Positions 18,367 through 20,517 of a stretch of DNA of 20,823 nucleotides are shown one piece after another. This DNA is from a virus. The DNA lies in the IMG/VR virus record IMGVR_UViG_3300031787_001003, positions 1 to 20,823 of that record; one strand, 5' to 3'. The notes below the pieces were generated by a model. The model saw only the letters and a program-made list of their open reading frames with translations. It was not told where the DNA came from and made no database searches. Numbering within the stretch: position 1 is the stretch's first letter; the number at the start of each line of letters is the position of its first letter. The position numbers and the translations under genes are program-made.

Positions 18367-18929
18367 TTATTAGTACATCAACTGTAAATAACCGAGGGGG
18401 AGTTTTTAACCTTTGCACTCTATGCGGTTTACATACAAGTAGCAATACTTGAGGGGGTTGTTGATGTCAAGCAAAGTTCATTACTGTTAGTAAACAGTGA
18501 CAAACCTGTGGGGCTACTATTGGGTTCTATATTTCTCCTGCAAAGAGAGTATAGTACTGACATATCATTTGCAGTGATATGAATCCAAAGTTAGTGCAGA
18601 CTTAAAAATCAGGTATTTTACACATAGTATTGATAAAGCTATGTGAGTTTAATTTAAACTATCATTATCATGAGAACTTATTAGTCTCATGTTATATGAT
18701 TATCTATTCTCCTTCACAAGATTCCACTTGGGAGAATACAGCTGACTGAAGTGGAATTCAGTTTACTTACAAGAATAAGGATTCAGCGATCCTTCTCTAT
18801 GGCCTAGGAAACCATATGTGTCTTGTACAGTTGTTTAAATATTGAGCACAATCAATATTATTATTATTACTAACAATCAAGTCCTGTGTACCTAGCACAG
18901 GCAAGTCCTCAAACTAAAAAAATTAAGTT
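18367..18929 (+). ncRNA. Structured non-coding zone 2: dense array of stem-loops
   Basis: About 560 bases without a gene. Perfect stems follow one another: ACATCAAC/GTTGATGT (18375/18460) closing a three-way junction with AACCG/CGGTT and CAAGTA-GCAA-TACTTG (18436-18451, GNRA loop); ACTGTT/AACAGT (18483-18498); CTATA/TATAG (18527-18554); CATATCA/TGATATG (18561-18581); CACATAG/CTATGTG (18621-18645); CATGAGA/TCTCATG (18669-18691); ATTCTCC/GGAGAAT (18706-18737); ACTGAA/TTCAGT (18745-18762); AAGGAT/ATCCTT (18777-18794); AATATTGA/TCAATATT (18838-18859); CCTGTG/CACAGG (18883-18901). No T-run follows the last stem, so transcription may continue into the next small gene. A large structured RNA, comparable in size to known large phage RNAs such as GOLLD or ROOL, is a reasonable reading; identity is unknown. 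Confidence 0.55.
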
Positions 18930-19064
18930 ATGATTGTTAAAACTATGATTGAATTGTTCCAAGGTAATTTAACCAAGGTACAATATGTTAAGTATTCTAA
19001 TGGTAAAACTATTAAAAGAATACTTGGTAAAGATAATGTTCCTGAATTCATCATTAATCTGTAA
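18930..19064 (+). CDS. Small basic protein, 44 aa, unknown
   Basis: The ORF MIVKTMIELFQGNLTKVQYV... ends in PEFIINL, 44 residues. The leader AAAAAAATTAAGTT just before the ATG resembles the AT-rich leaders of the other plus-strand genes, and the stop is only four bases before the next start. It reads as a beta hairpin plus helix. No family recognised; short length limits certainty. Confidence 0.5.
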   Translation: MIVKTMIELFQGNLTKVQYVKYSNGKTIKRILGKDNVPEFIINL

Positions 19065-19068
19065 GACT

Positions 19069-19221
19069 ATGAAGAATTATATGCCATATATCTTTGTTGT
19101 TCTTTTGTTAGGAACATTTTCCGGGTTACTTATGTCTATGGGAAGCAACATACTTGCTTCTGTAGGTATGATGTCATTATTCTGGGCAGCTATGCTTGCT
19201 CCCGTATTGGTTAGCAAGTAA
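19069..19221 (+). CDS. Small membrane protein, 50 aa, two hydrophobic segments
   Basis: I take the ATG at 19069 (MKNYMPYIFVVLLLGTFSGL...) rather than an upstream ATG at 18985, because the upstream extension would run through the preceding small gene in another frame. Residues 5-22 and 27-48 are hydrophobic, Gly/Ser/Met-rich, with a basic N-terminus and C-terminal SK. It could be a small phage membrane effector; no family recognised. Confidence 0.55.
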   Translation: MKNYMPYIFVVLLLGTFSGLLMSMGSNILASVGMMSLFWAAMLAPVLVSK

Positions 19222-19230
19222 CCATACTAT

Positions 19231-19255
19231 CCTGAGTAGGATATAAAACTGCTCA
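19231..19255 (+). repeat. CCTGAG...GCTCA element, copy A, at the 5' edge of zone 3 RNA
   Basis: CCTGAGTAGG...AAAACTGCTCA. TGAG and GCTCA are separated exactly as in copies B and C (18 bases start to start), but no T-run follows, so this copy is not a simple terminator. It ends in the first arm of the 16-bp stem of the zone 3 RNA. Confidence 0.5.
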
Positions 19256-19599
19256 CTGCCTATTGTATTATTAAAGACATGAAAGAGTCAACTGTAAAAA
19301 TCAGTTATAATACAATAAGAAATGGTGAAGCAAAACAGTTAAACAGAAACCATTAATAGCAGTTATTTACTCTCATCCAAGCAGGATAACATACTACCAT
19401 TGAGCTTATGATGCTCCGTGATGGATGTATGTCAAGGGTTGCAACCTTGTGAGAGTACCAATAATCAGATAGAGAAGAAAGTTCTCACTCAGCAGTATAA
19501 CTGACTAGTATACACTTATGTCTAGTCAACATAAGAAAAACTGAGAGGTCAGCAGGTGAAAGTCCTGCTTCTGATTAAGATACAATAGAAAGGCAGTGA
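19253..19599 (+). ncRNA. Large structured RNA closed by a 16-bp long-range stem
   Basis: TCACTGCC-TATTGTAT (19253-19268) pairs with ATACAATA-(GAAA)-GGCAGTGA (19580-19599), enclosing about 310 bases. Inside are: AATGGT/ACCATT (19321/19349); a three-way domain closed by TACTCTCA/TGAGAGTA (19368/19450) with nested CATAC/GTATG, CCAT/ATGG, GAGC/GCTC (19390-19431) and CAAGG/CCTTG (19433-19449); and a domain closed by TAATCAGA/TCTGATTA (19462/19570) with GAGAA/TTCTC, CTCAG/CTGAG, TGACTAG/CTAGTCA and AGCAGG/CCTGCT (19551-19569), the last abutting the closing strand. A local alternative, TATTGTATTAT/ATAATACAATA (19261/19307), competes with part of the closing stem. No protein-coding frame. Function unknown. 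Confidence 0.7.
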
Positions 19600-19612
19600 T
19601 ATTCTGCGTATA

Positions 19613-19644
19613 CCTGAGCATGTAGACAAAAGGCTCATTTTTTT
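19613..19644 (+). repeat. CCTGAG...GCTCA element, copy B, with T-run
   Basis: TGAGC (19615) and GCTCA (19633) can pair and are followed by seven T, so it could terminate the zone 3 RNA. It lies 34 bases before the ATG at 19678. Same internal spacing as copies A and C. Confidence 0.55.
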
Positions 19645-19677: not shown

Positions 19678-20478
19678 ATGAAAATTCATTTAAACTCAAG
19701 ACAAGGTCTCTATGAAGTAGAGACATATGGTAGAGATACAATTACATTATCTACCAAACATAATGTGTTTCAAGTACCAGTATCTGATTTTAAATCATTT
19801 GCCGGTGGTAATTGGAACTTTAATGTACCCAAAGAAAAAATGGATACATTTTTATCAGTTGTTCAACCTGATAAATATAAAATACAAGTTGAACAAGAGA
19901 ATCAAATACTAACTCTAGCTGTTAGATTAGGTATGATTCAAGATGCAGTTAAAGCACAACAATCAGTTGTTGTAGAAGAATCAGATGATTATCAAGATAT
20001 ACCATTTGAAACTGATGAACCTACCAAAGATGAATATGAAAAATGGTGGAGAGATAAATGTAATGAGCTTGATACTACAAAAAATAAAATGAGAAATATT
20101 GCATCTGAAGTATATTCTCAGAATCTTGACTTCAGTAATTTTCAGAATCACAAGGGTATTAAATTCATTATACAAACAGATGCATATGAAACAGAATTTA
20201 GATTCCGTTGGGACCCATATGGATTTGTATCTAATGGTCACAGTGATATCAGTAGCATCTTTAGAGCAGATGATTGGTATACTGTCAATGGTGGTTGGAT
20301 TAAAATCATTGGTGATTATGTGATTTTATATTCTAAATCAGGTGATTATGGTGTGTATGATGATGCAATAGCTACTGCATGTGCAAAGAAAGTATTTCCT
20401 ACTAAAGAAATACATTCATTTGCAGGTAGATACTGGGATGATGAACTTGATTCTCTTTTTATGGAACTCCCATTTTAA
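19678..20478 (+). CDS. Unknown phage protein, 266 aa
   Basis: A 266-residue soluble protein. The first 60 residues are beta-rich (MKIHLNSRQGLYEVETYGRDTITLSTKHNVFQVPVSDFKSF), with a helical middle containing an acidic stretch (VVVEESDDYQDIPFETDEPTKDEYEKWWRDKCNELDTTKNKMRNIASEVYSQ, about 96-148) and an aromatic-rich beta C-terminal half (IKFIIQTDAYETEFRFRWDPYGFVSNGH...WYTVNGGWIKIIGDYVILYSKSGDYGVYDDAIATACAKKVF). No known domain recognised. It is the largest plus-strand gene and sits in its own unit between two CCTGAG...GCTCA elements. Confidence 0.85.
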   Translation: MKIHLNSRQGLYEVETYGRDTITLSTKHNVFQVPVSDFKSFAGGNWNFNVPKEKMDTFLSVVQPDKYKIQVEQENQILTLAVRLGMIQDAVKAQQSVVVEESDDYQDIPFETDEPTKDEYEKWWRDKCNELDTTKNKMRNIASEVYSQNLDFSNFQNHKGIKFIIQTDAYETEFRFRWDPYGFVSNGHSDISSIFRADDWYTVNGGWIKIIGDYVILYSKSGDYGVYDDAIATACAKKVFPTKEIHSFAGRYWDDELDSLFMELPF

Positions 20479-20486
20479 CTCTATGT

Positions 20487-20517
20487 CCTGAGTATGACAA
20501 TAAAGTGCTCACTTTTT
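20487..20517 (+). repeat. CCTGAG...GCTCA element, copy C, with T-run
   Basis: TGAGT (20489) and GCTCA (20507) can form a 5-bp stem with a G-U pair, followed by CTTTTT. Eight bases after the preceding stop and 47 before the next ATG, it could be a weak terminator, a promoter, or both. Confidence 0.55.

Follow-up and report, generated by a model that had tools for sequence, protein, structure and literature searches.

A conserved tRNA-shaped RNA frame with an exchanged central arm in crAss-like phage contigs

Introduction

Does a strongly folding stretch between two small genes of a crAss-like phage represent one large RNA or several short ones? The window, i.e. the whole stretch of DNA analysed here, is a 20.8-kb virus record encoding a portal and a crAss-like terminase that is 22–25% identical to those of many Crassvirales among its best hits. 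Both genes belong to a minus-strand block, which is followed by plus-strand small genes. The folded stretch is located among these small genes, after a small ORF whose end is at position 19221 and before the gene at 19678. Searches of protein families with the small genes gave just distant Pfam matches, below the cut-off, for two of them. The first-pass annotation had interpreted the stretch as a single RNA of about 350 nt, possibly of a new family, closed by a 16-bp stem of TCACTGCC-TATTGTAT with ATACAATA-GAAA-GGCAGTGA and comparable to the large phage RNAs GOLLD and ROOL.

Results and discussion

The folded stretch is a tandem of separate short modules

A 387-nt segment folded at −104 kcal/mol, compared with a shuffle mean of −79.1 (sd 5.1, z −4.9), and none of 100 shuffles was as stable; the span originally proposed gave a z-score of −5.65. 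The presence of structured RNA in a crAss-like phage was borne out. All the stems quoted were found in place, with TCACTGCC at 19253, TATTGTAT at 19261, ATACAATA at 19580 and GGCAGTGA at 19592, as were two inner 8-bp stems (19368–19375/19450–19457 and 19462–19469/19570–19577) and the direct junction of CCTGCT with TCTGATTA. The following features were assigned.

18477–18614, plus strand: Hatchet ribozyme (RF02678), 82.1 bits (gathering threshold 51), E 5.9e-16, full model length
19233–19255, plus strand: intergenic hairpin TGAGTAG..CTGCTCA, related to the second hairpin of module E, repeat family D2, repeated at 20488–20511
19253–19366, plus strand: segment D, local stem TATTGTATTAT/ATAATACAATA at 19261–19271/19308–19318, or the long-range 16-bp stem instead; z −4.2
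19367–19458, plus strand: module A, tRNA-shaped scaffold whose central arm varies, closed by stem P1 at 19368–19375/19450–19457
19376–19385, plus strand: 5' frame of module A, consisting of U, P2 (CC 19377–19378/GG 19384–19385) and loop AAGCA (19379–19383), near-invariant in 59 copies
19386–19432, plus strand: variable insert of module A, window type, stems 19389–19394/19427–19432, 19397–19401/19420–19424 and 19402–19405/19413–19416
19433–19449, plus strand: P4 of module A, T-arm-like hairpin CAAGG-GUUGCAA-CCUUG adjoining P1, loop 19438–19444
19440–19442 with 19381–19383: proposed kissing contact of UGC in the P4 loop with GCA in the P2 loop
19459–19578, plus strand: module B, predicted 8-bp terminal stem 19462–19469/19570–19577 and three predicted arms, with a possible H-pseudoknot (GACTAG/CTAGTC with CTTATG/CATAAG)
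19583–19641, plus strand: module E, hairpins 19593–19596/19604–19607 and 19616–19619/19633–19636, followed by a U-run in the window

The comparative evidence on the 16-bp stem came from module E (AAUAGAAAGGNNGUGAUAUUCNNCGUAUACCUnnGCAUGUAGACAAACUGCnn). An alignment of 26 distinct copies showed 98.7% of cells paired, compared with 24–56% in slid controls, and both sides had changed in six of the nine pairs. The first hairpin covaries locally (GCAG/CUGC, GACG/CGUC, GUAG/CUAC, GUCG/CGAC), and its 5' strand is GGCAGTGA at 19592, the very sequence proposed as the 3' arm of the long stem, whereas some 30 further distinct E copies lack the upstream complement of GGCAGTGA. The 5' arm lies in segment D, which was met in no contigs other than those of this phage, and modules A, B and E occur elsewhere in other orders and singly. 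It is true that the 16-bp stem is part of the minimum-energy fold and that, when the region was shuffled 300 times with its dinucleotide content kept, only two shuffles produced a comparable perfect 8+8 closing stem, in a test made after the stem had been seen; its rarity may perhaps reflect that D contains, in both orientations, sequence akin to the beginning of E. A single 350-nt RNA is nevertheless very improbable, and 19253–19641 is a mosaic of the separate short modules D, A, B and E in tandem, not one closed fold. Folding of a single sequence can therefore make several independent RNA modules look like one giant RNA.

GOLLD and ROOL share with the window the property of being structured noncoding RNAs of phage genomes, but each of them is one RNA several hundred nt long, whereas the modules here measure about 60–120 nt, occur independently elsewhere and have no Rfam match, so the likeness did not hold. 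Neither Rfam 15 nor a permissive Rfam search gave a match for A, B, D or E, and the region 19253–19640 was without a credible match even permissively; in the window only the Hatchet ribozyme passed, outside the span in question. Short E probes searched against 50,697 GenBank phage records gave chance-level matches only. The intergenic TGAGTAG..CTGCTCA hairpin was also seen in other loci.

Module B folded with a z-score of −3.1. An identical stretch of 119 nt was found in L003/L009 and in L226, where the neighbouring insert differs, and a covariance model of B retrieved identical copies only, together with weak matches, the best of which rested on the common GCAGGTGAAAGTCCTGC hairpin. Of the two inner domains, strong covariation was thus obtained for 19368–19457, whereas 19462–19577 was met elsewhere only as identical copies. 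The GCAGGTGAAAGTCCTGC hairpin recurs alone directly after a stop codon in L007 (11349), L020 (2639) and L067 (10758).

Module A is an unnamed RNA family

A search by neighbouring genes yielded nine loci for comparison with the window, and BLAST among these showed 19367–19458 to be conserved at its ends and not in its middle. Viral contigs were then scanned for CAAGGRTTGCAACCTTG, giving at least 120 stretches, the majority of which had the frame of module A; as this bait is the conserved P4 hairpin, the invariance of P4 is partly due to selection, while P1, the arm and the loop variants were not so selected. At least about 100 distinct copies were present in crAss-like phage contigs, with the near-invariant frame UACUCUCAUCCAA(UU)GCAGG...CAAGGRUUGCAACCUUGUGAGAGUA. 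Alignment of 59 copies revealed 21 invariant columns, all within the two frame pieces, and model R1, built from these copies, scored 79.9 bits at the window copy. E-values of such home-made models are rough, and copy numbers are lower bounds since at most 150 candidates per record were scored in the record-wide search.

The fold of module A is strongly supported by covariation. In P1, both sides had changed in six of the eight pairs over the 59 copies, and 97.3% of cells paired as against 35–49% in slid controls. Three further helices in the arm were supported by 15 copies of the window type, whose alignment likewise showed 97.3% of cells paired (slid controls 31–45%) and 11 pairs changed on both sides. 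The proposed contact between the loops is compensated as well: a change of UGC to UAC in the P4 loop is matched by GCA to GUA in the P2 loop, and this was seen three times on an insert background that has the standard pair in other copies (L066/L276, L067/L280, and L020 or L080/L042). When the plus strand is read, G-U pairs occupy about 25 of the 450 cells in the 15-copy alignment, which favours this strand as the one transcribed.

Two kinds of departure from the common form were noted. A sub-class (L022, L266, L274, L275, L277 and L278) has loops AAUAG/AUUAGAA and stands outside the GCA:UGC pairing rule. In L026, L041, L047, L083 and L091 two additional hairpins come before the 3' strand of P1, and some of these copies end with GGATGAGAGTTTTT, which would permit a stem of 10 bp with a U-run behind it and could be a terminator form.

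The layout of module A is reminiscent of tRNA (RF00005) and of viral tRNA-like structures. Its closing stem is about as long as that of a tRNA; stacked directly on the 3' strand of this stem is a hairpin of 5 bp and a 7-nt loop, as found for P4 in the 59 copies, and a D-arm-like hairpin lies near the 5' strand with a contact between the two loops. In contrast to tRNA, however, the D-like stem has 2 bp, the T-loop is RUUGCAA and not the tRNA consensus, the contact between the loops consists of Watson–Crick base pairs, and the place of the anticodon arm is taken by unrelated arms of 6–157 nt. ARAGORN found no tRNA gene in the window, nor did RF00005 give a match there. A tRNA with an encoded CCA end was also considered and rejected, as the sequence following UGAGAGUAC varies and the ACCA of the window is not conserved.

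Neither the whole span nor module A gave any BLAST match in the 50,697 GenBank phage records, short probes for the frame yielded chance-level matches only, and a scan of cellular genomes returned one match, taken as chance. No description of the family was found in the literature covered, to which the main RAGATH-motif paper does not belong. Module A is thus an unnamed RNA family, widespread in crAss-like phage contigs; the novelty suggested earlier for the whole span as one RNA applies to at least this one domain.

Module A lies between co-directional genes and occurs patchily

Among 73 contexts with a gene called on both sides, module A lay between co-directional genes in 69; 13 copies overlapped an ORF of the mechanical caller. 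There is no fixed neighbour gene. Large contigs usually carry one copy each; in 13 of these the terminase large subunit (TerL) was 52–100% identical to that of the window in ten, matched distantly in two and gave no match in one. In the ten, A lies about 8–25 kb from the terminase and on the opposite strand. Module A was present in two of the 20 records chosen as TerL relatives, which are mostly fragments, as are the carriers of module A, all of them metagenome contigs. This patchy occurrence indicates that A is accessory and its function not essential. Two very small ORFs precede the module in the window (18931–19221; 44 and 50 aa, the second membrane-like), and similar ORFs sit upstream of A in L005, L006 and L020.

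The position between co-directional genes, sometimes 25–40 nt before a start codon, could suggest a cis-acting element of the neighbouring early genes, such as a 5'-UTR regulator, a terminator or an RNA-stability element, the more so as module E and its related hairpin can end in a U-run. We regard this as quite unlikely, because the distance from A to the next gene ranges from 26 to about 2000 nt, the next gene differs among loci, a U-run rarely follows A, and a cis regulator would not need at least about 60 unrelated arms.

The central arm is replaced as a block

Among the matches listed, the arms fell into 61 families in one clustering (98 copies) and into 59 in another (110 copies). When locus pairs with both flanks alike were compared, the arms were unrelated in 25 of 26 pairs, these pairs sharing members and not being independent. 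In L005 and L104, for instance, the flanks agree at 96.5% over 200 nt and at 98% over 103 nt and the arms are unrelated; the window and L003 have the frame and module B in common at 99%, again with unrelated arms. The same arm was moreover seen with different downstream modules, and vice versa. Judged from these sequence comparisons, the arm is replaced as a block between otherwise nearly identical phages, a wholesale exchange that is not visible from one sequence.

Since all carriers are metagenome contigs and the frames are shared and only 20–30 nt long, the exchanged arms might be assembly artefacts. This would require two mis-joins per locus with both flanks kept; furthermore, individual arm families turn up in more than one contig and their structure covaries, and the version in the window is identical in L002 and L010, whose names point to other datasets. 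An artefact is accordingly hardly credible.

No arm was found outside its frame in the DNA searched. Complementarity of the arms to their own locus equalled that to foreign loci, so arms antisense to their own locus were rejected and any antisense target must lie elsewhere or be nonexistent. The stability of the arms is only modestly above that of shuffles (mean z about −1), both strands being alike.

Very conserved, near-palindromic frames, exchanged arms and modules in many intergenic slots would also be expected of a DNA-level element in which the inverted-repeat frame serves as a recombination or transposition site, folded as single-stranded DNA, with the arms as cargo. We consider such an element unlikely: G-U pairs are tolerated on one strand, nearly all copies run in the direction of the flanking genes, the loop–loop contact covaries, no recombinase gene is tied to A, and there is usually one copy per genome.

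A second frame, module C, and the Hatchet ribozyme

Many relatives carry, about 0.7 kb or less downstream of A, a second frame designated module C, which was not seen in the window. Its layout is UAAUGCACCAU, a hairpin with loop UUCCCAAGG, CAGUUGUA, a variable arm and UACAACUGAGUGCAGAGGG; examples are L005 (9570–9830), L008 (8243–8350), L044, L117 and many more. The frame stems covary (GCAC/GUGC, GUAC/GUAC, GCAU/AUGC, GCGU/ACGC, in addition to several hairpin stems), no Rfam match was obtained, and the arms were unrelated in 28 of 30 flank-matched pairs. One common pool for A and C arms was rejected, matches between them being at chance level with one exception.

The Hatchet ribozyme shares the noncoding region with the modules, 0.75 kb upstream of A, and in seven further loci (L006, L020, L104, L110, L112, L127 and L130) it was also recognized, by pattern, at 0.6–1 kb upstream of A. 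Like A it carries a variable arm, but it is a separate module to which no sequence or structural relation was found.

These ribozymes raise the question of whether A and C might themselves be ribozymes that cleave themselves, or processing elements of a ribozyme-like kind, in which a peripheral arm varies; the array would then be cut into small RNAs. Long variable arms are often tolerated by ribozymes, and the UAAU...CCCAAG...GAGGG motifs of frame C recall twister by eye. Yet A has no match among the Rfam ribozymes and offers no identifiable cleavage site, and a twister identity for C was not supported, the twister-P1 model matching none of eight records at E 10. We also know of no ribozyme family in which peripheral arms are exchanged as unrelated blocks between near-identical genomes. 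A ribozyme identity for A and C is, on balance, rather unlikely. The theta ribozymes of gut phages are likewise structured RNAs of Bacteroidota phages in a tRNA context (PMC10879173), but these have an HDV-like fold adjoining real tRNAs, and no such match occurs in the window.

A trans-acting RNA with a specificity arm is the favoured explanation

The explanation that we favour, tentatively and at a little short of an even chance, is that module A is a trans-acting phage RNA in which a constant scaffold presents a hypervariable arm under arms-race selection. It is preferred on account of the conserved frame, the rapidly replaced part, the low copy number and the setting among small accessory genes, an outcome typical of such conflict. 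Counting against it are the modest stability of the arms, the shared members of the flank-matched pairs, the mostly fragmentary carriers, the absence of arm complementarity to the own locus and the patchy occurrence. The scaffold consists of the 8-bp P1, a short D-arm-like P2 and the T-arm-like 5-bp P4 with its 7-nt loop stacked on P1; the P2 and P4 loops would touch through 3–5 base pairs, and the variable arm is held where tRNA has its anticodon arm. The RNA would be transcribed with the surrounding block of small genes and act in trans, its scaffold either stabilizing it or docking it on one constant partner. The arm would be the specificity part, diversified as its target varies, whether this is part of the host's defences, a host factor or a rival phage. 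The simplest route for its exchange would be homologous recombination between related phages that encounter one another, proceeding through the conserved frames. The neighbouring modules E, B and D are separate RNA pieces of the same array.

It is conceivable, and we put this forward with reserve, that crAss-like phages possess, in RNA, the equivalent of a variable-region system, in which specificity arms are shuffled as cassettes within frames A and C and each phage's trans-acting RNA has its own target in host–phage or phage–phage conflict. Exchange of whole domains inside a conserved frame is familiar in proteins, as in tail fibre tips, antigens and DGR targets; to our knowledge no structured RNA family is known to do this. 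Should specificity reside in the arms, these phages hold a natural library in which at least about 60 RNA modules share one scaffold, and the purpose of a phage noncoding RNA becomes testable by arm swapping.

Two further observations concern the inserts and their surroundings. The inserts of L011 and L112, one an A arm and the other a C arm, each include a GGTTCAAATCC hairpin resembling the T-arm of tRNAs. Between A and C, at least five other unnamed modules of RNA-like appearance recur, in L021/L067, L031/L055, L037/L061/L111, L039/L129 and L020/L117.
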